A stretch of DNA of 55,590 nt, taken from contig CAIQQJ010000169.1 of NCBI GenBank assembly GCA_903873905.1, forward strand, positions 1 through 55,590, written 5' to 3'. The stretch is from an uncultured Flavobacteriales bacterium (GTDB taxonomy: Bacteria > Bacteroidota > Bacteroidia > Palsa-965). Numbering within the stretch: position 1 is the stretch's first letter; each line of letters starts with the position of its first letter. Below the pieces are notes generated by a model. The model saw nothing but the letters and a program-made list of their open reading frames with translations, was not told the DNA's origin and made no database searches. Position numbers and translations under genes: made by a program. This document shows, one piece after another, positions 25,410 to 45,462 of this stretch.

Positions 25410-25419
25410 GTTTTTCGTT

Positions 25420-26479: not shown

Positions 26480-26523
26480 GTGATCTTGATCAAGACTTGT
26501 TTTTGATGGATAGGATAATTTTA
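26480..26523 (+). promoter_or_regulatory. FNR-like operator and -7 element of the DUF2267 operon
   Basis: GTGATCTTGATCAA at 26480-26493 (perfect NTGAT-N4-ATCAN). The TAATTTTA at 26516-26523 ends exactly 36.5 bases from its centre. The start codon is at 26537, giving a very short leader. Confidence 0.65.
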
Positions 26524-26536
26524 TAAAAAAAATACC

Positions 26537-26983: not shown

Positions 26984-26993
26984 AAAATGTTTT

Positions 26994-27311: not shown

Positions 27312-27318
27312 TGGTGTA
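27296..27318. promoter_or_regulatory. Hairpin just before the PEP synthase start
   Basis: TACACC, 11 bases, GGTGTA, followed by an A-rich stretch, ending 25 bases before the start codon at 27344. It overlaps the end of the hpf frame. It could be a weak operator or an RNA hairpin that sets relative expression; no terminator T-run follows directly. Confidence 0.3.
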
Positions 27319-27343
27319 AAAAAATATTTTTTATAAAAAGAGC

Positions 27344-29758: not shown

Positions 29759-29935
29759 CTGATTTATTTTTGATTGTTTTTCGAAAAAAAATTAAAAAAT
29801 TGATTCTCAATAAATGTATTGTTGATCATAATCTCTTTGGTGTTTGATTTTTGTCATTCATTTCAGCACTAGAATTAGTGTACTTGCGTTGTTGAATTGA
29901 AACAGGTAGTTGATTTTTCAAAACACATTTTTCCT

Positions 29936-30691: not shown

Positions 30692-30719
30692 TTTATTTGT
30701 TCACTGGGTTAGCAGAATC

Positions 30720-30763
30720 GTGATTGGTACAATCCTTTTGAGTCAATTATTTTTGATTATTTG
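30720..30763 (+). promoter_or_regulatory. Weak FNR-like half-site and -7 element of the ATP-cone/nuclease gene
   Basis: GTGATTGGTACAAT at 30720-30733 keeps one perfect half-site (7 of 10 consensus bases). ATTATTTG ends at 30763, exactly 36.5 bases from the centre, but matches only TTTG of the -7 element. Included because the spacing equals that of the stronger sites. Confidence 0.35.
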
Positions 30764-30783
30764 ACTTTTTATTCAATTGAACG

Positions 30784-31647: not shown

Positions 31648-31693
31648 AACCGAAAGTCATTCAGAGGAAAAGGTTTTGAATGAAATCATGACT

Positions 31694-31760
31694 AGTGATA
31701 AATATCACTCCTTCAGAAGACGCATGGCAGTGCATTTTACATTGGGATGTCCCATATTTG
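31694..31760 (+). promoter_or_regulatory. Perfect FNR-like operator and -7 element of the 124-residue unknown gene
   Basis: AGTGATAAATATCACT (31694-31709) is a perfect 6-4-6 palindrome. CATATTTG (31753-31760), 5 of 6 to TAnnTTTG, ends 58.5 bases from its centre, so the operator sits at about -62. The start codon at 31783 follows a leader of about 19 bases. Confidence 0.65.
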
Positions 31761-31782
31761 AAAATCAAATAAATACGAAACT

Positions 31783-32157
31783 ATGAAACTGGCCGTAATT
31801 ACTTTTCCTGAAAACAATTATTTTCATGAAATTGCTGAACAACTCATTGAGGAAAATCTTGTGCGTTATGCTTCTGAAGCTGCTGATGAAATGGAATTTG
31901 AAAAAGAAGAGGAGTTGTTGGATGCGGTTAAACGCTCTATGGAGTTGTGCGTGTCCGCAGGGTTACCTGTGAATGCGAATTTTAAGCGCATTTATAAAAG
32001 TTGGCCAGATGGAATTCATTTTGATTGGAAGCTTTCGGTTCTTGCATTTTATCTTGTAAAGTTAAATGGTGCTCCTGCGAATCATCATGTGGCGGAATTA
32101 CAAATTCATTTATTGAAAGAACAGCAAATGAGATCTTTTCCACAATATGTCGAATGA
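31783..32157 (+). CDS. Acidic helical protein of unknown function
   Basis: 124 residues, cytosolic, no signal or membrane segment. It is rich in Glu near the N-terminus (IAEQLIEENLVRYASEAADE, EFEKEEELLDAVKR) and has an aromatic middle (FKRIYKSWPDGIHFDWKLSVLAFYLVKLNG). No family recognised. The perfect operator 74 bases upstream, at regulon spacing, and the strong terminator downstream argue that it is a real, separately transcribed stress gene. Confidence 0.75.
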   Translation: MKLAVITFPENNYFHEIAEQLIEENLVRYASEAADEMEFEKEEELLDAVKRSMELCVSAGLPVNANFKRIYKSWPDGIHFDWKLSVLAFYLVKLNGAPANHHVAELQIHLLKEQQMRSFPQYVE

Positions 32158-32260
32158 GATTTCATTCGTGGAAAATAGTGATGTTTTGAAAACATAATCT
32201 TTGTTTTAACCAAGGGTTTGCTATTTATTTCGGGAGAAAAAGTTTCATGATAGGGAAACA

Positions 32261-32290
32261 AAAAAAGAGGCTTTAGGGCCTCTTTCTTTT
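32261..32290. terminator. Bidirectional Rho-independent terminator
   Basis: AAAGAGGC / GCCTCTTT stem (32264-32271 and 32278-32285) with a six-base loop, flanked by A-runs on the left and T-runs on the right. It serves the convergent 124-residue gene and Hsp20 gene. Confidence 0.85.
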
Positions 32291-32305
32291 TTGAAAATAG
32301 TTCAC

Positions 32306-32740
32306 TTATGCAATGGCAATTTCCTTTTTCTTGATTGCAGTTGGCACTTTTTTAGCAATGGTTAGCTTCAGAACCCCGTTATCATACTTTGCGTCAATCT
32401 TTTCTTCGCTCGCATTCTCTGGAAGCGTAAAGGAACGTGCAAATGATTCATATTTGAATTCTCGACGTGTGTAGTTCTTGTCTTTCTCTTCTGTTTCTTT
32501 TTTGGTTTCTGCAGTGATGTTCAACAATCCATTTTCAATGTTGACTTTGAAGTCATCTTTTTTCATTCCGGGAGCAGCTAACTCAATTTGGAAATCTTTT
32601 TGGTTGTCGATAATGTTCACAGCAGGAATCAAATCGTCATTGAATAGCGTGTTGCTGAAAAATCTATCCGCATCAAAAAAATCGGTGAGGAGAGTTCGTA
32701 CGGAGGAATCGCTTCCGTTGTTTCGTTTAATTAGTGACAT
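32306..32740 (-). CDS. Hsp20/alpha-crystallin small heat-shock protein
   Basis: 144 residues, normal length. The alpha-crystallin domain spans about 40-130 (PAVNIIDNQKDFQIELAAPGMKKDDFKVNIENGLLNITAE, FKYESFARSFTLPENASEEKIDAKYDNGVLKLTIAKK). A C-terminal tail holds a degenerate IxI/V-type motif (VPTAIKKKEIAIA). It is an ATP-independent holdase that keeps unfolding proteins soluble. It is transcribed from a textbook Bacteroidota promoter with an FNR-like site further upstream. Hsp20 is a hallmark of dormancy-type stress regulons. Confidence 0.93.
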   Translation of the reverse strand: MSLIKRNNGSDSSVRTLLTDFFDADRFFSNTLFNDDLIPAVNIIDNQKDFQIELAAPGMKKDDFKVNIENGLLNITAETKKETEEKDKNYTRREFKYESFARSFTLPENASEEKIDAKYDNGVLKLTIAKKVPTAIKKKEIAIA

Positions 32741-32787
32741 AGTTTTTGAGTTTTTATTGGTTAGTATTAAGTTTTTTTTGACTGGCT

Positions 32788-32853
32788 CAAAACTATTCTC
32801 CTTTCGCTTTTAATCAAAAGGAAATGCGCATAATGAAGAATGATAAAAGTCAA
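32788..32853 (-). promoter_or_regulatory. Consensus promoter of the Hsp20 gene with FNR-like upstream site
   Basis: On the minus strand TTTG (32818-32815), exactly 19 bases, then TAGTTTTG (32795-32788): a full TTTG-N19-TAnnTTTG match. An upstream TTGACTTTTATCAT (32853-32840, 8 of 10 to the operator consensus) is centred 58.5 bases from the last G of the -7 element, about -62. Confidence 0.75.
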
Positions 32854-33054
32854 TTTGTAGAGACAATTCTCAATAGGAATTTTGCAAAAAGAAAACTGAT
32901 GAAAATTTGAAGTAATTGCAAACAATCAATAGTAATTGTGTTTTGGATCACTGACTTTATTCCATTTATGACGCACCTTTGTATCATCTTCTTTGAATGA
33001 GAGCATTAAGAAAACTGATAGAATATCCGAACTAAAAAGCGGTGATCTTCAGCC

Positions 33055-33192
33055 CTCAATCAGGTGAATTCCTGACTCGACTTAATTTCTCCTTTCAAAT
33101 GCTAGAAAGCCTGTACAGAATATTGTCCTCACGGACATGCAACTGTTCCGACGAAAAAAAGGCGCTCTATCAGACGGTAGGACGCCTTTTTT
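33055..33192 (+). ncRNA. Candidate structured small RNA with three hairpins and terminator
   Basis: In a 605-base gap with no gene, three hairpins follow each other on the plus strand: TCAGG/CCTGA (33060-33075), TGTCC/GGACA with a four-base loop (33124-33137), and the terminator at 33154-33192. The next gene begins 154 bases further on. The 5' end is unknown; it may lie as far up as about 32990. I do not recognise a known RNA family (not tRNA, tmRNA or a riboswitch I know). It could also be a leader or an attenuator. Confidence 0.4.
33154..33192. terminator. Strong Rho-independent terminator
   Basis: A run of A, GGCG, two further positions, CTATC, loop AGAC, GGTAG, two positions, CGCC and TTTTTT. 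The stem is nearly continuous with one mismatch and two G-U pairs, and the A/T flanks let it work on both strands. Confidence 0.85.
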
Positions 33193-33283
33193 AGTTAGAT
33201 CTTATTTTTAAAAATGTTGTCCCAATATTTGGTTTGGTTTCTTTGAGCACCTTTATTCTTTCGTCATAAAGTCATTTGCCAAT

Positions 33284-33327
33284 TTGAGTTTTGTCACAGA
33301 TTTTTCAAAGTCTTTTGAATTCCTTTG
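33284..33327 (+). promoter_or_regulatory. FNR-like operator and -7 element of the 87-residue membrane protein gene
   Basis: TTGAGTTTTGTCAC at 33284-33297 matches 8 of 10 consensus bases. TTCCTTTG (33320-33327), 5 of 6 to TAnnTTTG, ends exactly 36.5 bases from its centre. The start codon is at 33346. Confidence 0.5.
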
Positions 33328-33345
33328 AGGATTATGTAAACCGAA

Positions 33346-33609
33346 ATGTCTAAAGATTTTGTTTTTCAAAAAGCGAGTATGAAAAATTCTGAAAAAGGAA
33401 ACTTCAAAAGACTTGTTGATGGATTTATTCGCTTTATGATTAATGGAATTCTTATCATAGTAGCATTGACCTTGCTATTGGTTACCAGCGTAAAATATTT
33501 CCTTGCCTATAGAACGGAATTATTGGGGAGATTCCAAAATTATGTCAAGGTGAAATTATTCCTTCGACCATCTCAAAACATATTGAATAGGCTGCGGACA
33601 TTTTTCTGA
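33346..33609 (+). CDS. Small single-pass membrane protein
   Basis: 87 residues with one strong helix at about 28-53 (FIRFMINGILIIVALTLLLVTSVKYFL), a basic N-terminal segment and a basic C-terminal tail (KVKLFLRPSQNILNRLRTFF). A second in-frame ATG at residue 12 (MKNSEKGN) is also possible; I keep 33346 because the predicted transcript starts close in front of it. No family recognised. The upstream operator suggests stress induction. Confidence 0.6.
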   Translation: MSKDFVFQKASMKNSEKGNFKRLVDGFIRFMINGILIIVALTLLLVTSVKYFLAYRTELLGRFQNYVKVKLFLRPSQNILNRLRTFF

Positions 33610-33720
33610 TCATTTTGTTTTTTTTAATGAAAATGCTTGCCTTGTTTTTTATGTTGAGGAAATTTTGAATGCAATCTTCTATATAGACAATGAGTTGGAA
33701 TAAAAGAATCATTTCGGAGT

Positions 33721-33764
33721 GTGATTATTGCCACCCTTTCATTGTTGTGGTAAAACTATTTTTG
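33721..33764 (+). promoter_or_regulatory. FNR-like operator and -7 element of the nitroreductase gene
   Basis: GTGATTATTGCCAC at 33721-33734 matches 8 of 10 consensus bases. TATTTTTG at 33757-33764 is a full TAnnTTTG match ending exactly 36.5 bases from the operator centre. The leader would be about 75 bases. Confidence 0.6.
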
Positions 33765-33842
33765 AAAATTAATTCTCACACGTGAATTCATACTCATTTG
33801 CTTTTTGTTATTTGATATTGAATTTAAATGCAAAAAAAAATT

Positions 33843-34472
33843 ATGGAAACATTGACAAAAAAGAAAGCAAATATTTCCGGCACGCTTGAAACCATTTATG
33901 AAAGGAGAGCTGTTCGAAAATATAAACATCAGACTGTAGATCGAAAAATTATCGAACAGATCATTGATGCGGGACGAATGGCTCCTTCAGCAATCAACAA
34001 ACAACCTTGGAAGTTTTATATTCTCACGGATAAAGATTTGATTCACTCATTTTCGAAGGAAATTGGTAAAGTGGCGGCAAAAGGAGTTCTGAAAACGGGG
34101 GTGAAAGGAATTATTAATTCCTTAAGAGGACCTTTCCATTTGTTGCAAGGAATAAAATTTGTGATGACGTCTGATCCTGTTTTTCATGGTGCACCTGTTG
34201 TTATTTTCATTACGGCTCCTAAAGAAAATGAATGGGCGAGTTTGGATGTTGGTATGTGCGCACAGAATATGATGCTCGCTGCAAAAACATTGGGTTTGGA
34301 AACTTGCCCAATTGGTTTTGCAAAATTTGTTGAACAAACAAATTTGTATTCCAAATTAAATATTCCAGATTCGGAACATGTGCTGTTGGCTATTATATTG
34401 GGTTATGGCGATGAAAAGCCGGAAGTTCACCAAAGGAAAAAGGACAATGTAATTTATATTGATCCTCTTTAA
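33843..34472 (+). CDS. Nitroreductase-family flavoprotein
   Basis: 209 residues from METLTKKK at 33843; a start 5 codons upstream at 33828 is also open. FMN-binding features of the family are IYERRAVRKYKHQTVDRKII (arginine-rich start), IIDAGRMAPSAINKQPWKFYILTD, VGMCAQNMMLAAKTLGLETCPIGF and LLAIILGYGDEKPEV. A 30-residue insertion around 80-110 (KEIGKVAAKGVLKTGVKGII) is longer than in the smallest members. It is a cytosolic NAD(P)H-dependent reductase, substrate unknown. The zinc-ribbon gene follows after 63 bases, probably on the same transcript. Nitroreductases are also members of hypoxia regulons elsewhere. Confidence 0.88.
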   Translation: METLTKKKANISGTLETIYERRAVRKYKHQTVDRKIIEQIIDAGRMAPSAINKQPWKFYILTDKDLIHSFSKEIGKVAAKGVLKTGVKGIINSLRGPFHLLQGIKFVMTSDPVFHGAPVVIFITAPKENEWASLDVGMCAQNMMLAAKTLGLETCPIGFAKFVEQTNLYSKLNIPDSEHVLLAIILGYGDEKPEVHQRKKDNVIYIDPL

Positions 34473-34535
34473 TTCAATTACAATACAGCTTGAATTCAAA
34501 TAAATAAAAAAATAAAACAGATTTGAAAAACCGAT

Positions 34536-34745
34536 ATGAACACTGTAAAGATTTGCCGCAACTGTAACATGCCACTTTCCAATTCACAACTATTGGGTAC
34601 AGAAAAAGATGGCTCAAAAAATTATGATTATTGCAAATATTGTTATGCAAAGGGAGAAAAGATAACGCAGAAAAATGCATTTGTTCGAATAAAACCAAAT
34701 TCGAATCTCAATTGCAGAAGAGGTAGGGTTATTGAGCGGCAGTAG
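34536..34745 (+). CDS. Small zinc-ribbon protein
   Basis: 69 residues with CRNCNMPL near the N-terminus and DYCKYCYAKGE 20 residues later, the CxxCxMPL...LGTExDGSxxxxYCxYCY pattern of the putative zinc-ribbon family. The C-terminal third is basic (VRIKPNSNLNCRRGRVIERQ). It could bind nucleic acid or a protein partner; no function is known. It probably shares the nitroreductase promoter. Confidence 0.8.
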   Translation: MNTVKICRNCNMPLSNSQLLGTEKDGSKNYDYCKYCYAKGEKITQKNAFVRIKPNSNLNCRRGRVIERQ

Positions 34746-34835
34746 AAGGAAGGCTAAATTGTACTTACTGGCTCATTCTTTGCTGAAAAGGATAGTAAAG
34801 CCAATTCCTGACGGATGACATTTAATATTTAGAAG

Positions 34836-34851
34836 TGTGATGAATATCACT
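34836..34851 (+). promoter_or_regulatory. Perfect FNR-like operator before the 47-residue membrane protein
   Basis: GTGATGAATATCAC at 34837-34850 with perfect 5-bp arms. Unlike the other sites it has no good -7 element at 36.5 or 58.5 bases. The nearest candidate, TATTTTG ending at 34873, is 29.5 bases away. The site could act differently here, as a repressor or with a shifted promoter. Confidence 0.5.
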
Positions 34852-34893
34852 ACAAATCGATAGAAATATTTTGTCCTTTACATTAAAATTGCA

Positions 34894-35037
34894 ATGAAAA
34901 ATGGAGGGTATAAGTTGGTCATTGTATTTCTTTTGTTGATTATTGGAATACTCTGTGTGCTTCTGTTTATCGGTGATAGCGGTAAATATTGTACGCCAAT
35001 TGTGAAGGAACCAAGCCAAATGGGAAAAAACAGATAA
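34894..35037 (+). CDS. 47-residue single-pass membrane peptide
   Basis: Start ATG 34894, stop TAA 35035-35037. The sequence begins MKNGGYKLVIVFLLLIIGIL, continues with CVLLFIGDSGKY and ends in a polar tail (CTPIVKEPSQMGKNR). A single helix spans about 8-29. The lysine-flanked N-terminus and clean hydrophobic stretch make it a good small-membrane-protein candidate. The perfect operator 43 bases upstream supports transcription. No family recognised. Confidence 0.6.
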   Translation: MKNGGYKLVIVFLLLIIGILCVLLFIGDSGKYCTPIVKEPSQMGKNR

Positions 35038-35202
35038 ACAGTGACAAATATTTTTTATATCGGGGGTTTTGCTTTAGGCAAACAGTTTTTAACAATGGGC
35101 ATGGCAACTATCAGTTTTCAAAGAAATCGTTAATTTTAGTAACTTTCAATTGTATGGTAATTGAATAAAATCAAGTGATAGAAATATTTTAAAAATCATT
35201 TT

Positions 35203-38200
35203 GTGAAAAACCCCATTTCGAAAAAAGTTGTGAAGAAAAAAGTTGTGAAGAAAAAATCAAATGTGGTTTTGAAAAAAAATTCTCCGCTTTTAATAAACAA
35301 AAAAAAATCTCTGACTCTGAAACGCTCCGATTCTGATGCGTCTTCGAAGAAGTTGTTTATTGTGGGTATTGGTGCCTCTGCAGGCGGACTAGAAGCGATG
35401 CAAGAATTATTTGATAATATGCCTTTTGATTCTGGACTTGCCTTTGTTGTTATTCAACACCTCGATCCAACACACAAAAGTTTGTTGTCGGAATTGTTGG
35501 GTCGACATACGGCAATGAAAGTTACAGAAGCAAAAGATGGTGAAAAAATTAAACCCAATTGTGTTTATGTCATTCCTCCAAATAAGGAATTGGGAGTTTT
35601 TCACGGAACATTACAATTGATCAAACCACTTGAATTGCGTTCCTTGAGACGGCCAATAGATTACTTTTTTCATTCATTGGCGGGAGATCAAAAAGACAAG
35701 GCAATTGGCATTATACTTTCAGGGACCGGAACTGAAGGGGCATTGGGATTGAAAGAAATAAAAGCTGAAGGTGGAATGACAATTGTTCAAGAACCTAGTT
35801 CAGCAAAATTCGATGGCATGCCACTTGCAGCCATCATTTCGAAAACAGCTGATAATATTTTGACTCCAAAAATAATGCCCGCAGTTTTATTGAAATATGT
35901 TCAAAAGAGGGCAAAAGGAATTATGGGAACAGAACCGGAATTGACTGCTTCTTTTTTGAGTCAGTTGAAGAAAGTTTTCCTACTTATTCGCAATAAAACC
36001 GGGTATGATTTTTCGAATTATAAAATGAACACTATTGCACGCAGGATTATGAAAAGAACTGCGTTAAATCAAATTGATTCCATAGATGATTATATTGTGT
36101 TCCTGCAGAGTAATCCGAATGAAATTGAATTGCTCTATAAGGAATTTCTGATAGGAGTTACTTCATTTTTCCGTGATAAAAATGTTTTTGATAGTCTTGA
36201 GAAAAATGTAATTCCTCATTTGCTCGAAAAATGTGCAGAGAAACAAGAACTTCGCGTTTGGGTTTGTGGATGTTCTACAGGTGAGGAGGCATATTCCATT
36301 GCAATATTATGCAAGGAGGCCTTGGAAAAAAACAAGCAGTATATCAAAGTGGTGATATTTGCTTCTGACATTGATAAGGAAGCGGTTGAATTTGCACGTA
36401 GAGGAATTTATTCTGAAAGTATTGTTGGAGATGTTTCTCCGGAACGATTAGCCCGCTATTTTATTCGAAAGGAAAATAGCTATGTGCTCAAAAAAGAAAT
36501 TCGAGAAATGGTGGTGCTTGCACATCATAATGTGATTAAAGATCCTCCCTTTTCCAAAATGGATTTGATAACCTGTAGAAATCTCTTGATTTATTTGAAT
36601 AGCGATTTGCAGAAGAAGGTAATTCCTGTTTTTCACTATAGTTTAAATAAAGAGGGTGTTTTATTATTGGGAACTTCGGAAAGCATTGGAGATTTTAATA
36701 ATTTATTTTCCGATTTTGATCAGAAAAATAAAATCTTTTTAAGGAAACAGAATTCAATTGGACGAAAGCCAAATTCAGATTATGAATTGCCTTTGGTTCA
36801 AAATAAAGCAGCTTTCTCATCTAACAAGCCGAGTTCTGAGATTTCAAAAAAAATAAATATTTCCGGCCTTACTGAAAAAATACTGCTTGATAATTATGCT
36901 CCTCCATCTGTTATTATAGATAAAAATAATGACGCTTTGTTTTTTTCTGGAAACACTGGACAATTTCTTGAGCCCCCAATGGGTGAAGCGAGATTGAATA
37001 TTATTGATATGGCAAAAAAAGGATTGAGACATGAACTTTCCACTGCCATTAACAAATCGAGAAGCATTAAAGCGGAAGTACAGATTAATGCGGTTGAAAT
37101 TAAAGTGAACAGTCATTTTGAAAACATTAATCTTATTGTGAAACCTGTTATAACCAAAGAGAGTGATTTGGGGGTGATGATGGTTGTTTTTGAACCAACA
37201 AAAAGTAGGGCTAAGAATTCCAAGACACAATCAGGCGTTCGCAATTTGAAAGTTGGGGATCTTGAAAAAGAGTTGAAAATTACACGGGAACACCTTCAGA
37301 CTGCCATCAATGAATTGGAATCTTCGAATGAAGACCTTCAAAGTACCAATGAAGAATACCAATCTTCAAACGAGGAATTGCAAAGCACCAATGAAGAATT
37401 GGAAACTTCAAGGGAAGAATTACAGTCTGTTAATGAAGAGATGATAACTGTAAATTCGGAACTTCAGGATAAAATAACTCAGTTATCCGATGCCAATGAT
37501 GATTTGAATAATTTGCTGCGCAGTATTGAAGTGGCAACAGTTTTCCTCGATAGAAATCTGAAGATAAAACGGTTTACGCCTGCTGCAACAAAAATATTCA
37601 ACATTATTGCAAGTGATATTGACAGACCTGTTACGCATTTGTCGAGCAATTTGGTCTACAAAACATTTGATGAGGATGTGAAAAGTGTGTTGAAGACACT
37701 TGCCGTAAAATCTGCAGATGTTCAAGCGAGTGATGGTTCTTGGTATCACATGCGCATTATGCCTTACCGTTCAGCCGAGAATATTATTGAAGGAGTGTTG
37801 GTGACATTTGTTGATATATCAGATCAGAAATTTGTGGAGGAACGATTGAAAAAGACGAATGAGCATTTGAATCTCATTATGGAAAATCTCCCTGCTATTC
37901 CCTTTACATGCGTTGCGGAAAATAAAATATTAATTACGTTTGTTGGGAAAAGTTGTGAAAAGGTTACAGGGTTTTTGCCTGAACAATTTACAAGCAAACC
38001 TACATTCTGGAGTAATAGAATTCATCCGGATGACAAGAAAAAAGTTCTTTTGACATTTTCTGCCGTTATAAAAAAGGGCAGCCTTGACCAGCCTTTCAGA
38101 TGGAAATGTTCAGATGGTAAATACAAACATTTTGTAAATTATGTACGATTTGCAAAATCGGAAGGAGGAAGGCCTTCTTACATTGTTGGTGTTTGGCAAG

Positions 38201-38223
38201 AAGTGATTAACAAACGGAAATAA
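35203..38223 (+). CDS. CheB-CheR-PAS multidomain signalling protein
   Basis: 1006 residues, GTG start. Lysine-rich N-terminus (1-40). The CheB methylesterase domain is about 50-235, with S59 (GIGASAGG), H86 (VIQHLDP) and SGTGTEGALG, where the usual catalytic Asp is Glu178. The CheR methyltransferase domain is about 245-510 (VWVCGCSTGEEAYSIAI, ITCRNLLIYLN). After a PAS-like linker comes a long coiled coil at about 685-780 made of repeated SSNEELQSTNEELETS-type heptads, then a PAS domain (ATVFLDRNLKIKRFTPAATKIF) and a final PAS (about 885-1003). No chemoreceptor gene is near, so a signalling role outside chemotaxis is likely. It is followed after 17 bases by a PAS kinase. Confidence 0.92.
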   Translation: MKNPISKKVVKKKVVKKKSNVVLKKNSPLLINKKKSLTLKRSDSDASSKKLFIVGIGASAGGLEAMQELFDNMPFDSGLAFVVIQHLDPTHKSLLSELLGRHTAMKVTEAKDGEKIKPNCVYVIPPNKELGVFHGTLQLIKPLELRSLRRPIDYFFHSLAGDQKDKAIGIILSGTGTEGALGLKEIKAEGGMTIVQEPSSAKFDGMPLAAIISKTADNILTPKIMPAVLLKYVQKRAKGIMGTEPELTASFLSQLKKVFLLIRNKTGYDFSNYKMNTIARRIMKRTALNQIDSIDDYIVFLQSNPNEIELLYKEFLIGVTSFFRDKNVFDSLEKNVIPHLLEKCAEKQELRVWVCGCSTGEEAYSIAILCKEALEKNKQYIKVVIFASDIDKEAVEFARRGIYSESIVGDVSPERLARYFIRKENSYVLKKEIREMVVLAHHNVIKDPPFSKMDLITCRNLLIYLNSDLQKKVIPVFHYSLNKEGVLLLGTSESIGDFNNLFSDFDQKNKIFLRKQNSIGRKPNSDYELPLVQNKAAFSSNKPSSEISKKINISGLTEKILLDNYAPPSVIIDKNNDALFFSGNTGQFLEPPMGEARLNIIDMAKKGLRHELSTAINKSRSIKAEVQINAVEIKVNSHFENINLIVKPVITKESDLGVMMVVFEPTKSRAKNSKTQSGVRNLKVGDLEKELKITREHLQTAINELESSNEDLQSTNEEYQSSNEELQSTNEELETSREELQSVNEEMITVNSELQDKITQLSDANDDLNNLLRSIEVATVFLDRNLKIKRFTPAATKIFNIIASDIDRPVTHLSSNLVYKTFDEDVKSVLKTLAVKSADVQASDGSWYHMRIMPYRSAENIIEGVLVTFVDISDQKFVEERLKKTNEHLNLIMENLPAIPFTCVAENKILITFVGKSCEKVTGFLPEQFTSKPTFWSNRIHPDDKKKVLLTFSAVIKKGSLDQPFRWKCSDGKYKHFVNYVRFAKSEGGRPSYIVGVWQEVINKRK

Positions 38224-38240
38224 TTATAAAAAGCAGTACA

Positions 38241-39515
38241 ATGGAAAGCAATAGTTCCAGTGGAGGTGATTCCTCAAAACTCCGTAAAAAGGCAGAAGAA
38301 AAAAAGGTGTCAAAAGACAAACTCCTTCCAAAGGATATGGAAAGTGAGCTTGGTCATGAATTGGATGTACATAAAATTGAATTGGAAATGCAAAATGAGG
38401 AGCTTCATTTTACGCAGGTGAAGTTGTGGAAATTGAATGAGGTGTATGCTGAATTATTTGACAGGGCTCCTGCAGGATATTTTATTTTGAATCGGGAAGG
38501 TGTTATTCTCAACGTAAATATCAAGGCCTGTGAAAATTTTAAAATGGATAAGTTTAGTTTGTTAAAAAAAACATTTCTAAAATTTATCGATTCAGAAACC
38601 GGCCAAGACAATTATTATTTGCATAATAATCTAGTCGCAGAAACAGAACAAACACAACAGCTGGAATGCGATATGGTGAGAAATGACGGATCCGTTTTTT
38701 CAGCTCTAATTGAAACAACACTGGTAAAAGATGGGAAAGGAGATTTTAAGTATTTTCTTTCATTGGTAAGCGATATTTCCCTTCGGAAGGACCAGGAACG
38801 AAAAATGGAGTTGGCCTTGATTCGGGAAACTGAATTGAACGAAATGAAATCCCAATTTATTGCAATCGCATCACATGAATTCCGGACACCATTGGCTGCA
38901 ATTTTGTTGTCAGCAGATCTAATTGAACGGTATACCGATCCGAAAGACGAAGAAAAAAAAATAAAGCATTTTGCAAGAATCAAATCTTCCGTTGCACGCG
39001 TGAAGGATATATTGAGTGATTTTCTTTCTATGAGTCATATCGAAAGAGGTTTGAAGACCAACAATCCAAGTCTTTTTAATTTGCAAGAATTTGCAGTAGA
39101 ATTTATCGATGAAATCAGAATGTTGAACGCAGCTCATACTATAAAATATGAGCCTCTTGGCGAAGGTTATGATGTTTATTTGGATAAGCAATTGTTGCGT
39201 GTTTGTTTGACAAATTTGATTAGCAACGCAGTCAAATATTCTCCTATCGGAGGAACAATAGAATTTTCTGTATCTACAGGAATGCAAGGAAATTTGGAAA
39301 TTGTGATTAAGGATTATGGATTTGGAATTCCTGAAATAGAACAAGTCCATGTTTTTGAGCAATTCTTCAGAGCCAAAAATGTCATGACAATTCAAGGACT
39401 TGGAATAGGATTAAGTATCACGCACAAAATAGTTTCATTAATGGGAGGTACCATCACTTTTGAAAGTACAGAAAACATGGGTACAACTTTTATACTTTCT
39501 TTTCCAAAAAAATAG
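38241..39515 (+). CDS. PAS-domain sensor histidine kinase
   Basis: 424 residues, soluble. The N-terminus is charged (KKAEEKKVSKDKLLPKDMES). The PAS domain is at about 65-185 (ELFDRAPAGYFILNREGVIL, FSALIETTLV). The dimerisation domain has phosphoacceptor H212 in FIAIASHEFRTPLAAIL. The ATPase domain has LTNLISNAVKYSPIGG, IKDYGFGIPE and IQGLGIGLSITHKIV. It is co-transcribed with the CheB-CheR-PAS gene. The next gene is the receiver-FNR regulator, 266 bases on, so it is the most likely kinase for that regulator (inference). Confidence 0.92.
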   Translation: MESNSSSGGDSSKLRKKAEEKKVSKDKLLPKDMESELGHELDVHKIELEMQNEELHFTQVKLWKLNEVYAELFDRAPAGYFILNREGVILNVNIKACENFKMDKFSLLKKTFLKFIDSETGQDNYYLHNNLVAETEQTQQLECDMVRNDGSVFSALIETTLVKDGKGDFKYFLSLVSDISLRKDQERKMELALIRETELNEMKSQFIAIASHEFRTPLAAILLSADLIERYTDPKDEEKKIKHFARIKSSVARVKDILSDFLSMSHIERGLKTNNPSLFNLQEFAVEFIDEIRMLNAAHTIKYEPLGEGYDVYLDKQLLRVCLTNLISNAVKYSPIGGTIEFSVSTGMQGNLEIVIKDYGFGIPEIEQVHVFEQFFRAKNVMTIQGLGIGLSITHKIVSLMGGTITFESTENMGTTFILSFPKK

Positions 39516-39681
39516 GTATCGTTTTTTTTCAGGGAGAACTTGAATAAAAAAAGTTTTGGTTTTTTTTAATATTTTTGTTGTATGCGTATATGATGTAAAT
39601 CCAATATTGTTTTTTAGTACAACAATGAATTATATGTTATTCCATGATCTCCCTTAGTGTTTTCATTGAGAAAATGGATTT

Positions 39682-39726
39682 CTGACAAGTGTCATGCTGT
39701 TTACCTTGCAAAAATTTTGATATTTG
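39682..39726 (+). promoter_or_regulatory. TGAC-N4-GTCA palindrome and -7 candidate before the receiver-FNR gene
   Basis: TGACAAGTGTCA at 39683-39694 is a perfect palindrome. GATATTTG ends at 39726, 37.5 bases from its centre, one base off the regulon spacing. It could be an autoregulatory site for the gene starting at 39782. Confidence 0.4.
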
Positions 39727-39781
39727 TATCGATTGATTTTAATTTGTTATCCGCCCATTTAATTTAGTAAATGCTATTCCA

Positions 39782-40837
39782 ATGGGACAAAAGATTCTTA
39801 TTATCGAAGACAGCTCTGAAATGAGTGAAAATATTTCAGAATTATTGACGCTAGCAGGGTATGATGTTATTAGGGCAGACAATGGTAGGCACGGCCTTGA
39901 ATTAGCCAAAAGCAAGCATCCAGATCTTATTTTATGTGATATCATGATGCCCGACTTGGATGGTTATGGTGTATTGCGTGCAATAGAAAATTTGCCTGAA
40001 CTTGCCGGAGTTCCTTTTATTTTCGTGACAGCAAAATCGGAAAAAAACGATTTCAGGAAAGGAATGAACCTTGGTGCGGATGATTATTTGACGAAGCCAT
40101 TCGAAGGCGATGATTTGTTGAATATTGTAGCTGTGCGTTTGAAAAAAGGCCGGCAGATCAGAAAAATGTTTGAAAATTCGCTTGAAGGTTTAAATGAATT
40201 TATTGAGAAAGCCAATACTGTTTTAGGTACTGATATTTTTTCTGAAAATAGAATTGAAAAGAAATTAAGAAAAAAAGACGTGGTCTTCATGGAAGGCGAC
40301 TCATCAGTTTATTTATATTTTGTTTCAAGTGGAAAAATCAAAACCTATCGGACAAATGAGAATGGAAAGGAATACATAACTGGTATTTATAAAAAGGGAG
40401 ATTTTTTCGGATACCTGACATTGATTGACAACCACGCCAGAAGAGATTCTGCTATGGCAATGGAAAATTCTGAAATCGTTTTGATTTCGCGTCAGGATTT
40501 TCAGAAATTAATTTTCTCGAATAACGATGTGGCACTACATTTCATTCGTTTCATGTCGAATAATTTGGAAGAAGCTGAAGAACGTTTATTGAAATTGGCT
40601 TATAATTCAGCTCGGAAACGAGTGGCTGAAGCCTTATTGTTTATTCATAAAAAGTATGAAGCGAAGGAAGGCGAATCTATCTTGGTGAGCCGAGAAAATA
40701 TTTCCATGCTTGCTGGTATTTCTCCGGAATCTGCAAGTCGTAGTCTTACTGATTTCCGCGAGGAAGGTTTAATAGAAACAGAAAATGGATCTATTAAAAT
40801 TGTTGATGTTGTTGGACTTGAAAATCTGAAATGGTAG
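39782..40837 (+). CDS. Response regulator fused to a CRP/FNR-type transcription factor
   Basis: 351 residues. The receiver domain is 1-120, with acidic pair E9/D10, phosphoacceptor D53 (LILCDIMMPDLDG), T83 and K105 (DDYLTKPF). The cyclic-nucleotide-binding fold is about 150-255 (VVFMEGDSSVYLYFVSSGKIK, KKGDFFGYLTL). The winged helix is about 270-345, with recognition helix ISPESASRSLTDFREEGLI. By alignment to FNR (E209, S212, R213) the contacts would be E316, S319 and R320, predicting NTGAT half-sites. There is no FNR-type N-terminal cysteine cluster, so input should come by phosphotransfer. I propose it activates the stress-island promoters; the gene itself is preceded by a related palindrome. 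Confidence 0.92.
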   Translation: MGQKILIIEDSSEMSENISELLTLAGYDVIRADNGRHGLELAKSKHPDLILCDIMMPDLDGYGVLRAIENLPELAGVPFIFVTAKSEKNDFRKGMNLGADDYLTKPFEGDDLLNIVAVRLKKGRQIRKMFENSLEGLNEFIEKANTVLGTDIFSENRIEKKLRKKDVVFMEGDSSVYLYFVSSGKIKTYRTNENGKEYITGIYKKGDFFGYLTLIDNHARRDSAMAMENSEIVLISRQDFQKLIFSNNDVALHFIRFMSNNLEEAEERLLKLAYNSARKRVAEALLFIHKKYEAKEGESILVSRENISMLAGISPESASRSLTDFREEGLIETENGSIKIVDVVGLENLKW

Positions 40838-40892
40838 ATTAACCATTGATTTTTGTTTCTAATCTCTTTAATTGAAAGATGTATTCCTGATG

Positions 40893-41717
40893 TCAAGGAA
40901 TTTCATGTAAAACCAGAATGGGATATTCTGCAATCTGACTTATTTTCTTGATTAACTTGTTTCTTGAAAGTAATTTATTTTGTTGGTCATGAAATATGAG
41001 AACCAATAAATTTGTTTGAGATTCTGTTACATATTCATCTACGCCTTGAATAATATCATCGGTGTAGATTCTGCTGAATCTTATTTTTGCTTTTGAATCT
41101 TGTAGCAATTCTTCCATATTTTCTTTAACCGCATCATAAAGATCCCGACTGATCAGCGTATTGTGGCGGCTGACATGTAGAAAAGTTATTTCTGGATTGA
41201 ACAGATCAAGAAAATCATGTAGTTGAGGATAGAAGTTTTTACTTGCAATGCTATAATCCCATGCCAATACAACTTTACTGATGCTTGCGTATGAAACAGA
41301 TTCCGGAATAATAAGAACAGGGCAGTTGGTTTGTTTCAATGTATTGAATGTATTGGTTCCAAATATTTCTTGATATAAATCGTCAATGCCATTAGTTCCC
41401 ATCACCAATAATCTATTGTCGATTTCCTCCGAAGCGCTTGTTGTTTCAAAAAAATGTTCTGGTGTTTCCACATGAGCATAACATTGTATGTGAAAAGCCC
41501 TGTTTACTTCTCTGCAAACAACATCCAAAGCTTGGGAAATAGATTTGGTATTTTCTATGGCATTTGTTCCTGAGAATACAGATTCAAGAAGTCGTTCAGG
41601 TTGTAAATGGAAAATTTCCAATTTTGCATTGGTAAGTTGCGCCAATTTTGCAGCATATTCAACTGCGTTGTCAGCTGTTACAGAAAAATCCGTCGGACAA
41701 ATTATTTTATTTATCAT
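40893..41717 (-). CDS. Universal stress protein, tandem UspA domains (copy 2)
   Basis: 274 residues. Domain 1 (1-145) starts MINKIICPTDFSVTADNAVEYAAKLAQLT and has VMGTNGIDDLYQEIFGTNTFNTL, a variant of the ATP-loop. Domain 2 (about 150-274) is SISKVVLAWDYSIASKNFYP...LVLIFHDQQNKLLSRNKLIKKI. Sequence divergence from copy 1 is large, so the two are not recent duplicates. It has its own FNR-like promoter with a full-consensus -7 element and converges with the receiver-FNR gene. Confidence 0.9.
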   Translation of the reverse strand: MINKIICPTDFSVTADNAVEYAAKLAQLTNAKLEIFHLQPERLLESVFSGTNAIENTKSISQALDVVCREVNRAFHIQCYAHVETPEHFFETTSASEEIDNRLLVMGTNGIDDLYQEIFGTNTFNTLKQTNCPVLIIPESVSYASISKVVLAWDYSIASKNFYPQLHDFLDLFNPEITFLHVSRHNTLISRDLYDAVKENMEELLQDSKAKIRFSRIYTDDIIQGVDEYVTESQTNLLVLIFHDQQNKLLSRNKLIKKISQIAEYPILVLHEIP

Positions 41718-41753
41718 AAAAAAGTTTAAAATAAGATTTTAAAATTGTGTGCT

Positions 41754-41797
41754 CAAAATTATTGCTGATTTACGGTTCATTAGGTGATTCCGATCAA
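41754..41797 (-). promoter_or_regulatory. FNR-like operator and -7 element of usp copy 2
   Basis: GTGATTCCGATCAA at 41784-41797 (perfect NTGAT-N4-ATCAN). On the minus strand TAATTTTG (41761-41754) fully matches TAnnTTTG and its last G is 36.5 bases from the operator centre. No TTG is seen at -33, consistent with activator dependence. Confidence 0.75.
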
Positions 41798-41850
41798 AAT
41801 CGAATGTGATAAAATGCATCTATTGAAAAATAGGATGGAACAGGCTCAAT

Positions 41851-41880
41851 AAAAAAACGTCCCTGTTCAAAGAGACGTTT
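41851..41880 (-). terminator. Rho-independent terminator of the BON gene
   Basis: On the minus strand a GC-containing stem AAACGTC / GACGTTT with a 12-base loop runs into seven T residues, 37 bases past the BON-protein stop codon. Confidence 0.8.
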
Positions 41881-41916
41881 CTGAAATCTGAAATTTGTCG
41901 TTGAACTTTTCAGATC

Positions 41917-42585
41917 TTATAACGCGTAAATTTCAGATGCAATTTCCAAGTTATTTTCAATCACTTTAACTCCGGGAGCCATCCATGCAGCCTTAGCCGC
42001 ATCTTTTTTCTCAGCCAATGATCGAACTTTTCCAGTCAAGATTACTTTGTTCCCTATGGTTTCAATTTTGATTCTTTCAGCATCGAGGTTGGCGCTGCGC
42101 TGAAGTGCAAGAATTATTTTGGCTTTTATATCAGTAGCTGTTACTCGTGGAGTAATGATGATATTATCCGTCACACCGATCACACTAGAAAGATTTTCAA
42201 TTGCATCACGAGCGGCAGCTTTCTGGAATTCCCATTCAGCTTCTCCTTGCAATGAAACCCAACCTTTTTCCACTTTTATTTTTATTTTTTCTTCCTGAAC
42301 GGCGCTGTGCCATTTGAGTGCATTTAGAACAGCTTCTGCAATTTCTGCATCTGTTTTTCTGAGGCTGCCTGGAAGTTTAACTTCAATATCCTCAGCAACT
42401 GCTTTTACTCCTGCAATTTTCTTTGCGGCCAGTTCAGCTGCAAGTTTTTTTGCGTAGGTGTCAACAGTTCCTGTTAGCGTAACGATTCCGTTTTTAACGG
42501 CAACGCCAATTTCACTTGCATGAATAAATGGTTGCCATTTTAATTCCTCAATGACATCCTGTTGGATTTGTGCATCTGTTTTCAT
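41917..42585 (-). CDS. Protein with three BON domains
   Basis: 222 residues from MKTDAQIQQDVIEELKW at 42585; the 12 upstream codons are not family-like. Three BON repeats (about 1-70, 75-148, 150-220) share the pattern DAxIxxxVxxALKW...I.V.V..GxVTLxGxVxxxxxKxAAExAA. There is no signal peptide, so it should be cytosolic, unlike OsmY. BON domains bind phospholipid or other ligands, and the multi-BON form is common in stress clusters with Usp and Hsp20. It has its own operator-bearing promoter and terminator. Confidence 0.9.
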   Translation of the reverse strand: MKTDAQIQQDVIEELKWQPFIHASEIGVAVKNGIVTLTGTVDTYAKKLAAELAAKKIAGVKAVAEDIEVKLPGSLRKTDAEIAEAVLNALKWHSAVQEEKIKIKVEKGWVSLQGEAEWEFQKAAARDAIENLSSVIGVTDNIIITPRVTATDIKAKIILALQRSANLDAERIKIETIGNKVILTGKVRSLAEKKDAAKAAWMAPGVKVIENNLEIASEIYAL

Positions 42586-42618
42586 ATTGGTTTGTTTTAT
42601 TTGGATTGATTTGAAATG

Positions 42619-42684
42619 CAAAATAACTGGGAGAGAAACTCAATTCCCATTTAACTTGTCACAATTGAATGTGATTCATTTCAC
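42619..42684 (-). promoter_or_regulatory. FNR-like operator and -7 element of the BON gene
   Basis: GTGATTCATTTCAC at 42671-42684 (9 of 10 consensus bases). On the minus strand TTATTTTG (42626-42619), 5 of 6 to TAnnTTTG, ends 58.5 bases from the centre, about -62. Confidence 0.65.
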
Positions 42685-42718
42685 GAAAAAAACATTTTTT
42701 TGATTTCAAGAAACGAGC

Positions 42719-42850
42719 TCAAACTCCGAATGGATAGGTTTCTGGGATTTGATTTCCGTCTGGGGTCTTTAACGGGAGTGCATTTTTCTTGATGGCTTTT
42801 AGAATTTCTTCAAGATTTGCGGGCGTATAGTCAGTTACAATGCGTCTCAT
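42719..42850 (-). CDS. 43-residue conserved-looking small protein
   Basis: Start ATG 42850, stop TGA 42721-42719. It opens MRRIVTDYTPANLEEILKAI, continues KKNALPLKTPDGNQIPETYP and ends FGV. The amphipathic helix followed by a proline-rich tail looks like a real peptide rather than random translation. It is preceded by a -7-like TTTATTTG lying exactly 58.5 bases from the shared operator at 42917-42930. No family recognised. Confidence 0.55.
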   Translation of the reverse strand: MRRIVTDYTPANLEEILKAIKKNALPLKTPDGNQIPETYPFGV

Positions 42851-42864
42851 GAACTACTTTTTTA

Positions 42865-42960
42865 CAAATAAAATGAATGAGGTAATTATAAGTCGTGATA
42901 TAAATAATCGGTAGTCGTGATTATCGTCAACGCTGCCTTCAGATTATGCAAATAGATTTA
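42865..42960. promoter_or_regulatory. Divergent promoter pair sharing one FNR-like operator
   Basis: GTGATTATCGTCAA at 42917-42930 (9 of 10). To the right TAGATTTA (42953-42960) ends 36.5 bases from its centre and faces the alpha/beta hydrolase gene. To the left the minus-strand TTTATTTG (42872-42865) ends 58.5 bases away and faces the 43-residue gene. A second partial copy, GTGATATAAATAAT, lies at 42895-42908, 36.5 bases from the left -7 element. Confidence 0.65.
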
Positions 42961-42977
42961 CAGAAATATTTAACCCC

Positions 42978-43637
42978 ATGGATGATATCAAAAAATTTCC
43001 ACTTCAATTGCCGGTGAATGGTGGTTTCCTGTCTGGTGAAATTGTATTGCCGAATGATGCAAAGGCATTAATTATTTTTTCGCATGGCAGCGGTAGCAGC
43101 AGATTCAGTCAGAGAAATAATTTTGTATCTCAACTTCTGAATGATCGAGGAATTGGAACCTTGCTGTTCGATTTACTCACAGAAGAAGAGGATAAATTAT
43201 ACTCCAATCGATTTAATATTGATTTGCTTTCTGATCGGTTAATTGCAGTGACAAAATATTTGAAAGGCCGTCATCCTGTTTCCGATATTCCCTTTGGATA
43301 TTTCGGTGCAAGTACTGGTGCGGCTTCAGCACTTCAAGCGGCAGTTGCTCTTCCTAACCTTATCAATGCGGTGGTTTCTAGAGGAGGTCGTCCTGATTTG
43401 GCAATGGAAATAATTCCCATGGTAACGGCACCTACATTATTAATTGTTGGTGAGAAAGATGCTGATGTATTGCAACTGAATCGAAATGTTTTTAATAATC
43501 TGAAATGTGTAAAAAAACTTGAAATCGTCAAAGGTGCAACGCATCTATTCACTGAAAAAGGAACATTGGGTACGGCGGCTGAACTTGCGGCTGATTGGTT
43601 TGAAAAGTATTTGGTTAGAAAAAAAAGTTTGGTGTAA
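42978..43637 (+). CDS. Alpha/beta hydrolase (dienelactone-hydrolase-like)
   Basis: 219 residues, cytosolic. The oxyanion segment is FSHGSGSSRFSQRN. The nucleophile S112 lies in YFGASTGAASAL (G-x-S-x-G), the acid is D161 or D163 (GEKDADV) and H189 in GATHLF completes the triad. This compact form is usually found next to or fused with a phosphoribosyltransferase, as here (next gene after 10 bases). Substrate unknown. It is the first gene of an operon with the phosphoribosyltransferase and M50 protease, under an FNR-like operator. Confidence 0.9.
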   Translation: MDDIKKFPLQLPVNGGFLSGEIVLPNDAKALIIFSHGSGSSRFSQRNNFVSQLLNDRGIGTLLFDLLTEEEDKLYSNRFNIDLLSDRLIAVTKYLKGRHPVSDIPFGYFGASTGAASALQAAVALPNLINAVVSRGGRPDLAMEIIPMVTAPTLLIVGEKDADVLQLNRNVFNNLKCVKKLEIVKGATHLFTEKGTLGTAAELAADWFEKYLVRKKSLV

Positions 43638-43647
43638 ATGATTAATC

Positions 43648-44289
43648 ATGTTTACGGATAGAATTCAGGCGGCAAATCTCCTAGCGAAACCTTTGGCAAA
43701 ATATAAAAATACCAATGGTGTGATTCTCGCTGTTCCTCGTGGTGGTGTTCCCTTGGGGTATGTGCTTTCGGAAAAATTGAATCTTCCAATGGATTTAATC
43801 ATGACAAAAAAAATCGGACATCCTGCACATCCAGAGTATGCGATTGGATCAGTTTCGCTTCATGGAATTATTTTGGATGACCAAGCGAGTGGAGTTTCTC
43901 AAGAATATATTGATGAACAAGTAAAAAAATTGAGAAAGGAGATGTTGGAAAGATTGGAGAAGTATGATGGTAAACGAAAACAATATAGCCTAGAGAATAA
44001 AATCGTAATTATTGTGGATGATGGTGTAGCAACTGGTAATACAATTATTTCTGCTGTTGAAATGGTCCGGACACATGATCCGGAAAAAATCATTGTGGCT
44101 GTTCCTGTTTCGCCGCCCGACACTGCAAAATCACTTTCGAGACTTGTGGATGAATTTATTTGTCTTTCAGTACCACAACATTTTTATGGAGTGGGACAGT
44201 TCTACGATGATTTTTCGCAAATCAGTGATGAGGAGGTCATTCGGTATTTGCATCAGTCGGAAAAACAGTCGGCAAATAAATCCTACTGA
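43648..44289 (+). CDS. Phosphoribosyltransferase
   Basis: 213 residues. The PRPP loop VIIVDDGVATGNTIIS is near 119-134. Other features are VILAVPRGGVPLGYVLSEKL and MTKKIGHPAHPEYAIGSVS near the N-terminus and FYDDFSQISDEEV near the end, typical of the phosphoribosyltransferases that accompany dienelactone hydrolases. The base used is not known; members of this group in mycobacteria belong to the dormancy regulon. It is co-transcribed with its neighbours (10 and 30 bases). Confidence 0.9.
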   Translation: MFTDRIQAANLLAKPLAKYKNTNGVILAVPRGGVPLGYVLSEKLNLPMDLIMTKKIGHPAHPEYAIGSVSLHGIILDDQASGVSQEYIDEQVKKLRKEMLERLEKYDGKRKQYSLENKIVIIVDDGVATGNTIISAVEMVRTHDPEKIIVAVPVSPPDTAKSLSRLVDEFICLSVPQHFYGVGQFYDDFSQISDEEVIRYLHQSEKQSANKSY

Positions 44290-44319
44290 TTATTTATTGA
44301 AAATATAAAACAACTGAAA

Positions 44320-45462
44320 ATGAAATGGTCTTTATATCTTGGGAAAATACAGGGAATTGGCATCAAAGTTCATTGGACTTTTCTCCTCCTGATGGTATGG
44401 ATTTTCATTTCAGAAATAAGAAGTGGATTAGGTTGGGAACAAGGACTGTTAAGTGTAGCATTTATCGTTTCGGTTTTTATTTGTGTGGTGTTGCATGAAT
44501 TGGGTCATGCATTGACCGCACTTCGTTTCGGTTGCAAAACAAAAGGGATTACGCTATTACCAATTGGTGGTGTTGCACAGATGGAAAAAATCCCTGAAAA
44601 ACCATTGCAGGAATTGGTGATGGCAATAGCTGGGCCACTGGTGAATATTATCATTGCAACAATACTCGGAATTTTTATTTCCTTGTCAATGCATAGCTTT
44701 CATGTACAAGATTTCCTTGCAATTGAACACATCACACTTGAAGAATTTATTCCAATGTTGATGCTTGTAAATTTTTCTCTTGCCATTTTCAATTTTACGC
44801 CAGCTTTTCCAATGGATGGAGGAAGAGTTTTGCGTTCACTACTTTCAATAAAGATGGGACGCGTAAAGGCGACGCGTTGGGCAGCAAGAATAGGGCAGGT
44901 ACTCGCTGTTGGATTTGTGGTATTGGGACTGTTTTATAATATTTGGTTAGTCATTATAGGTATTTTTATTTTTCTCGGTGCAGGCGCAGAATCGGAATAT
45001 GAAGAGGAGAAATCTATTCTGGAAATGCATCAGGTAAAAGATGTGATTATGCATCACTTCACCGTTTTGAAAAAAAGAGATACAATTCCACAAGCCGTTA
45101 AATTACTTCTCGACGGCCAGGAAAAAGAATTCATTGTTTTGGAGGATGACGTTTATTGCGGAATTATGACAGAGCGAGAAATAATAAAAGGACTAAATGA
45201 GTTTGGAAAAAATGGTTTGGTTGGCGAATACATGTTGCGAAAAAACTTTATCCTGCATCCCTCAATGAATCTCAAGGATGCCTATATCAAAATGTCAGCT
45301 GAAGGAATTCCGATTTGCCCTGTTCAAGAAAATGGTAAAATAATTGGCGTGCTGAATCTTGAAAATATTATGGAACTTTTGATGGTGGAAAAAGTTGTAA
45401 AAGTGGAAAAAGAAATCCCGCGGCATCACGCAACTCTTTCAAAAAAATTAGTGGAGACTTAA
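44320..45462 (+). CDS. M50 site-2-protease-like membrane metalloprotease with CBS domains
   Basis: 380 residues. About six membrane segments span 1-225. Zinc ligands are in VLHELGHALTA (H59, E60, H63) and in PAFPMDGGRVLRSLL (the aspartate of the second motif, near 167). Residues 240-365 carry a CBS pair (VKDVIMHHFTVLKKRDTIPQ, GEYMLRKNFILHPSMNLKDA). CBS domains bind adenine nucleotides, so cleavage of a membrane substrate such as an anti-sigma factor could be tuned by energy charge; that is inference. It is the last gene of the hydrolase operon. Confidence 0.92.
   Translation: MKWSLYLGKIQGIGIKVHWTFLLLMVWIFISEIRSGLGWEQGLLSVAFIVSVFICVVLHELGHALTALRFGCKTKGITLLPIGGVAQMEKIPEKPLQELVMAIAGPLVNIIIATILGIFISLSMHSFHVQDFLAIEHITLEEFIPMLMLVNFSLAIFNFTPAFPMDGGRVLRSLLSIKMGRVKATRWAARIGQVLAVGFVVLGLFYNIWLVIIGIFIFLGAGAESEYEEEKSILEMHQVKDVIMHHFTVLKKRDTIPQAVKLLLDGQEKEFIVLEDDVYCGIMTEREIIKGLNEFGKNGLVGEYMLRKNFILHPSMNLKDAYIKMSAEGIPICPVQENGKIIGVLNLENIMELLMVEKVVKVEKEIPRHHATLSKKLVET

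Follow-up and report, generated by a model that had tools for sequence, protein, structure and literature searches.

The closest described counterparts of the regulator analyzed here are the activators FNR, FixK, and ANR, which read TGAT half-sites across an N4 spacer through glutamate, serine, and arginine recognition residues, act from a site near −41, and control targets such as cbb3 oxidase, HemN, and Usp. In the FixL-FixJ-FixK cascade of rhizobia, a PAS kinase and a response regulator are coupled to a FixK-like output over cbb3 and haem genes, and OmpR/PhoB-type regulators combine an N-terminal receiver with a DNA-binding output. The E. coli CRP consensus has GTGAT-N4-ATCAC (or GTGA-N6-TCAC) as its core, and the mycobacterial DosR dormancy regulon includes Usp, Hsp20, nitroreductase, CBS/M50, and phosphoribosyltransferase genes under a two-component system. 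The window (the whole stretch of DNA analyzed, 55,590 nucleotides) carries a stress island that includes a PAS kinase followed by a receiver fused to a Crp/Fnr-type protein (REC-CRP):

25005..45462, stress island, delimited from Pfam-identified genes
38241..39515 (+), PAS histidine kinase, likely cognate, without FixL haem motif (Pfam, motif check)
39683..39694 (+), TGACAAGTGTCA, single candidate site upstream of the regulator's own gene
39782..40837 (+), REC-CRP response regulator with an S-type recognition helix (PESASR) (Pfam, sequence, model)

Island genes identified through Pfam encode TerB-like, Usp, and DUF2267 proteins, a PPDK-type/PEP-synthase-like enzyme, SDR, ATP-cone/Mrr, Hsp20, nitroreductase, CheB-CheR-PAS, the PAS kinase, the regulator, a second Usp, BON, a DLH-type hydrolase, a phosphoribosyltransferase, and M50-CBS. 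Next to the island, a second signalling block (45477-53285) encodes a receiver, a receiver-PAS kinase (1205 aa), an MCP-type hybrid kinase, and CheR, and contains two large overlapping kinase ORFs. A first-pass annotation had proposed the receiver-FNR fusion as the likely master regulator of the island. We consider it likely that this protein is a phospho-switched activator acting on operators paired at 22 bp, with the island genes as its local targets and low oxygen or respiratory stress as its cue.

Domain architecture and the adjacent kinase

The ORF at 39782-40837 (+) encodes a 351-aa protein composed of a receiver, a cNMP fold, and a Crp-type winged helix:

residues 5-116, Response_reg (Pfam E 1e-28)
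residues 160-246, cNMP_binding (Pfam E 6e-23)
residues 279-349, HTH_Crp_2 (Pfam E 3e-13)

All residues associated with receiver phosphorylation are present, i.e., the acidic pair E9/D10, the phospho-acceptor D53, T83, and K105. In an AlphaFold2 model built from 39 relatives (mean pLDDT 84), the receiver is followed by a linker helix, a beta-roll, a long dimerisation helix (263-291), and a recognition helix (315-327), although the moderate pTM of 0.60 makes the relative domain placement unreliable. The best PDB matches to this model were CRP and FNR structures, and the cNMP fold, dimerisation helix, and Crp-type winged helix, as identified by Pfam and the model, are those of the Crp/Fnr superfamily. 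The three-part architecture with D53 had been described correctly by the first-pass annotation, as had the position of E316, S319, and R320, which fall on the modeled recognition helix (P315 E316 S317 A318 S319 R320); these FNR-type residues are also common to two paralogues in the same genome. The 4Fe-4S cysteines of an oxygen-sensing FNR proper were sought in this sequence and are absent, again as annotated, the sole cysteine being C52 inside the receiver. CRP contacts cAMP in part through a phosphate-binding-cassette Glu and carries an Arg-Glu recognition helix. Neither the conserved cAMP contacts nor this helix were found in the window protein, in which the cassette Glu is a Tyr and a Pro precedes E316 where CRP has Arg. 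Judging from these residues, we propose that the output module is a Crp/Fnr-type activator that would operate without an Fe-S cluster and without a conserved cAMP site.

The PAS kinase lies upstream of the regulator on the same strand, as previously noted, and the 266-bp gap between the two genes holds the lone candidate site at 39683..39694, which displays C/A-type bases at position 1 and no good partner at 22/23 bp. Across the family, a PAS kinase is located directly upstream on the same strand for 89/107 REC-CRP genes (median gap 22 bp), adjacency being less regular within the clade that shares S319. This conserved linkage makes phosphorylation a plausible switch for the window protein, in which modification of the receiver, most simply by the kinase at 38241-39515, would turn the activator on. 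The FixL haem motif was sought in the sequence of this kinase and is absent, and its interpretation as a FixL-type haem sensor was rejected; this interpretation holds for a minority of the family. Specifically, the FixL haem signature HD.Y..IIGxGR was detected in kinases at 11 family loci, one of which scores best against FixL. These kinases occur near REC-CRP genes, mostly with isoleucine at the S319 position (I-type), in Pontibacter, Adhaeribacter, Rufibacter, Rhodocytophaga, and others:

L098, L099, L101, L103, L104, L105, L109, L118, L129, L140, L168, loci with FixL-motif PAS kinases

Paired operators in the island and across the family

Across the whole window, TGAT-N4-ATCA occurs 6 times against 3.6 expected, a count reached in 19/100 shuffles; since this is not above chance, the search for operators was confined to intergenic DNA and performed de novo. 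Five of these six sites fall in the intergenic DNA of the island. An unbiased scan of these 3.3 kb with 256 half-sites and 13 spacers (3,328 combinations) ranked GTGA-N6-TCAC first (4 vs 0.03 expected, p 3e-8) and TGAT-N4-ATCA second (5 vs 0.2 expected, p 2e-6), so that the palindrome first annotated at the island promoters is real and above chance. Genome-wide, GTGATN4ATCAC is found at only 8 sites in 3.93 Mb, including 3 within the 55.6-kb window and one on contig C81 at a distance of 4 kb from the nearest paralogue. As the E. coli CRP consensus has the same GTGAT-N4-ATCAC core, the site is not specifically FNR-like.

REC-CRP proteins were identified in 193 of 395 sampled Bacteroidia genomes (E 1e-60), and we surveyed operators around 116 REC-CRP loci. 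Scanning the GTDB species genomes yielded 80 loci, taken with flanks of up to 10 kb, and further loci came from the whole-genome set. The de novo scan covered 186 kb of intergenic DNA, the borders of which are approximate because genes were called by a simple ORF rule. TGAY-N4-RTCA was the top intergenic palindrome around these loci, with TGAT-N4-ATCA ranked first (114 seen vs 4.0 expected) and TGAC-N4-GTCA second (66 vs 1.2). The density of sites reached 1.5-2.5 per kb near REC-CRP genes, compared to 0.13 per kb in 19 control stretches chosen regardless of REC-CRP genes, and dropped with distance from the REC-CRP gene.

The sites are strongly paired: of the partners that match at ≥7/8 positions around 423 exact sites, 226 lie at offset 22 and 28 at offset 23, as opposed to 0-6 at each of the remaining offsets between 12 and 45. 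In addition, the motif TAnnTTTG, which serves the primary sigma factor of Bacteroidota as −7 element (PMC7366714), starts 29 bp after the center of the gene-proximal site and 51 bp after that of the distal site. The full geometry (pair plus −7 box) was observed 223 times at REC-CRP loci, once in controls, and 0-8 times for shifted spacings; these wrong-geometry controls led us to reject chance palindromes as an explanation. By analogy with the E. coli −10 element, the operator centers would lie near −41 (proximal) and −63 (distal), and the spacing of pair and −7 box would be that of class II/III CRP/FNR activators. On phosphorylation of the receiver, two dimers would bind a TGAY-N4-RTCA pair cooperatively, with centers 22 bp (about two helical turns) apart and a single footprint, and would recruit RNA polymerase to TAnnTTTG promoters as CRP/FNR do at class II/III sites.

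The same paired geometry is found in the window upstream of both Usp genes and of the DUF2267, SDR, ORF 31783, nitroreductase, and BON/DLH genes, some members being weak (strand is given where assigned):

26330..26363 (−), paired operator of the Usp gene 25420-26301, −7 box at +29 (5/6)
26459..26492 (+), paired operator of the DUF2267 gene 26537-26983, −7 box TAATTTTA at +29 (5/6)
29823..29856 (+), operator pair ahead of the SDR gene 29897-30691, −7 box weak
31696..31729 (+), operator pair (GTGATAAATATCAC and a weak proximal site) of ORF 31783-32157, −7 box at +29 (5/6)
32917..32950, weak operator pair (6/8, 7/8) between the Hsp20 gene and ORF 33346
33700..33733 (+), weak operator pair preceding the nitroreductase gene 33828-34472, −7 box perfect at +29
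34816..34849, operator pair including GTGATGAATATCAC, ~350 bp upstream of the CheB-CheR-PAS gene 35203-38223, a candidate target
41785..41818 (−), paired operator of the Usp gene 40893-41717, perfect −7 box TAATTTTG at +29
42896..42929, paired operator between the divergent BON (41917-42621) and DLH/PRTase/M50 (42978-45462) genes, −7 boxes (5/6) on both sides

The local targets would thus comprise Usp, DUF2267, SDR, nitroreductase, BON, DLH/PRTase/M50, and perhaps Hsp20. As a marker for similar islands, DUF2267 was of no use, being too rare in relatives. This genome contains eight pairs with no more than one mismatch, three of them in the island and two on C81. The first-pass annotation had regarded the match of predicted specificity, location, and operator as the strongest clue to the regulator; the paired operator and fixed −7 spacing, which it had missed, constitute stronger evidence, and because this promoter grammar is shared across the phylum, the overall case is now much stronger than the one originally made.

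The gene and its operator also tend to co-occur in related genomes, as had been suggested for verification. Exact paired sites were found in 123/193 genomes with a REC-CRP and 58/201 without (odds ratio 4.3, p 4e-12, which is not a strict probability because the genomes are related); the 109 pairs of genome G320, in which the control pattern counts 61, were excluded as a repeat artefact. We rejected an operator exclusive to REC-CRP proteins, because paired sites also occur in 29% of the genomes in which no REC-CRP was detected. In three such genomes, stand-alone CRPs with GTATExxIR helices are encoded beside exact pairs, and the operator is thus a property of a wider Crp/Fnr clade that includes the receiver fusions.

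Half-site specificity and possible alternative readers of the island

Isoleucine occupies the S319 position in 89/101 family members first classified, while the fifteen S-type entries, from nine families, form a single clade (support 100). Base 1 of the half-site differs accordingly between complete promoters of I-type loci (C204 A267 G43 T82) and S-type loci (C8 T56 G53 A56), and is mostly G in the window (G12 T4 A1). Per locus, the share of G/T is 0.62 for S-type (12 loci) and 0.22 for I-type (57 loci; p 3e-6), and a single-site comparison excluding the genome under study yielded p 4e-8 for G. A role of residue 319 in recognition predicts such a shift, and its observation supports a link between helix and operator; however, since S319 arose once on the tree, this is a clade correlation and not proof for S319 alone, and other changes in the clade could cause it. 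More generally, the TGAT half-site predicted from the FNR-like helix is supported by the association of REC-CRP genes with such sites in many families. We suggest that the window protein recognizes the island sites by the G/T-type half-site that marks the S319 clade.

The helix alone does not designate a reader. Contrary to the first-pass annotation, the E..SR residues do not single out the window protein, as every family member has E316 and R320, and stand-alone Crp/Fnr paralogues have them too. The genome encodes four REC-CRPs, i.e., the window gene and the following:

C81:16749-17795, paralogue with 59% identity to the window protein
C52:33523-34413 plus C164:12458-12757, split paralogue with 51% identity
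C7, paralogue with 46% identity and helix A-P-E-T-V-I-R

The C7 gene follows genes resembling HemN and cbb3 assembly parts by sequence. The split gene runs across the ends of C52 and C164, which overlap by 141 identical bases; these two contigs are probably adjacent in the chromosome. The window, C81, and C52/C164 proteins all carry the P-E-S-x-S-R helix, and one of the two paralogues could be chiefly responsible for regulating the island, either by itself or in redundancy, especially as the C81 gene has an exact pair in its own promoter region and another 4 kb away. Neither is encoded in the island, however, each being located in its own neighborhood with a kinase-like gene nearby, and we regard this scenario as improbable.

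A comparably small chance is given to a stand-alone Crp/Fnr protein (C131:61733, C131:60469, or C164:6042) as the island reader, which would make the REC-CRP a bystander or a source of cross-talk. The helices of these proteins (TTTETSIR, TTYETAIR, and TATETTIR, respectively) are of the related E..IR type, and CRPs with the same kind of helix adjoin exact pairs in genomes without a detected REC-CRP. Yet all three have isoleucine at the S319 position, and I-type REC-CRP loci display A/C at base 1 where the island has G/T; furthermore, the pairs at C131:45488/45747 are of the A/C type, as if used by a different reader. These two pairs (C131:45488-45780) lie between genes for a NarK-like transporter and a ferredoxin-type Fe-S subunit, which suggests that nitrate or another anaerobic respiration uses the same operator grammar with a different reader. 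The genome also encodes two nearly identical, adjacent Crp-like proteins with an unusual helix, ISVDRLVK (C57:43160-44954). Finally, it is very improbable that a cAMP-CRP-like protein uses the palindromes as CRP-type sites: GTGA-N6-TCAC is the top island palindrome, but the only CRP-kind Arg-Glu helix found in the genome is that of C157 (H-R-E-A-I-S-R), base 1 across the family is mostly A/C and not G, and the conserved core, TGAY, differs from that of CRP sites.

A phospho-switched FNR-like activator thus probably reads the TGAT sites of the island, and the first-pass annotation was right in kind. From the sequence evidence, a role of the 39782-40837 protein as an activator of the island is well supported; it may also be the master regulator, though not necessarily the sole one, as paralogues share its helix. 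A paralogue with a better fit to the site had been named as the finding that would overturn the proposal, and the genome goes part of the way, since the P-E-S-x-S-R helix recurs in the C81 and C52/C164 proteins, and a related E..IR helix in three stand-alone CRPs.

Putative family targets and relation to known systems

Putative targets across the family were evaluated as clusters of homologues downstream of operators, each named from one representative. They include the kinase (42 loci), Usp (34 genes), cbb3 oxidase CcoNO (22), the REC-CRP itself (15), Hsp20 (8), CcoI-like ATPase (7), HemN (6), HemA (5), RIC (5), and BON (5), and the putative regulon would accordingly comprise kinase, Usp, Hsp20, cbb3 oxidase, CcoI, HemN, HemA, and RIC genes. 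FNR-like boxes that would control cbb3 and haem genes are thus found in the family, while the window island holds stress genes without cbb3; elsewhere, the same module would govern cbb3 oxidase and its assembly, HemN, HemA, and Usp/Hsp20. From these family targets, the signal of the window kinase may be oxygen, redox, or respiratory stress, with low oxygen or respiratory stress as the likeliest cue.

Several additional loci stood out in this survey. A family of 126-aa proteins (L134:11453-11833), for which no Pfam or NCBIfam model matched at the thresholds used, is a recurrent target of paired operators (12 loci). The Hymenobacter swuensis plasmid pHsw1 (L301, typed mobilizable) encodes a PAS kinase, a REC-CRP, two group III truncated haemoglobins, a heavy-metal P-type ATPase, CcoS, and CcoN in a cluster whose exact operator pairs have a spacing of 23 bp. 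The REC-CRP on a contig titled Azovibrio restrictus (Pseudomonadota; L154) falls among Bacteroidota in the tree, and this contig is probably misbinned or mislabelled.

No description of this family's operator was found in the full-text literature searched, mostly outside subscription journals, and public records, e.g., for pHsw1, name REC-CRP genes only “response regulator” or “transcriptional regulator”. The present data point to a widespread low-oxygen and stress control system in Bacteroidota. A bolder reading, which we hold tentatively and at somewhat less than even chances, is that roughly half of sampled Bacteroidia use a kinase-controlled FNR substitute for respiratory and stress activation, an obligate dimer of dimers at 22-bp pitch whose receiver would switch side-by-side assembly, and that one residue changed the half-site of the window's clade. 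A two-component FNR analogue would explain, in a concrete and testable way, how cbb3 oxidase, haem synthesis, and dormancy-type stress genes could be controlled in many Bacteroidota without the Fe-S cluster of FNR. The promoter grammar (a TGAYN4RTCA pair at 22 bp, followed after 29 bp by TAnnTTTG) has enough specificity for regulons to be called straight from genome sequence, and the S/I split at residue 319 represents a natural experiment on operator recognition.

Among known systems, the DosR regulon of Mycobacterium resembles the island in cargo, although its regulator and operator are unrelated and no common regulation is claimed. The 39782-40837 protein shares with FNR, FixK, and ANR the recognition residues, and its family the TGAT half-site, N4 spacer, predicted site near −41, and target types. 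It differs through the N-terminal receiver and the missing Fe-S cysteines, and the sites of the family are usually paired 22 bp apart, accept TGAC besides TGAT, and in most of the family do not have T at base 1. The resemblance to FixL-FixJ-FixK lies in the combination of PAS kinase, response regulator, and FixK-like output over cbb3 and haem genes; here, however, the functions of FixJ and FixK are merged in a single protein, and the window's own kinase lacks the haem motif (proximal His, distal Arg). Like OmpR/PhoB-type regulators, the 39782-40837 protein has an N-terminal receiver with intact Asp, Thr, and Lys, a DNA-binding output, and an adjacent kinase; unlike them, its output is predicted to be already a Crp-type dimer, so that palindrome binding would not in itself require receiver dimerisation.
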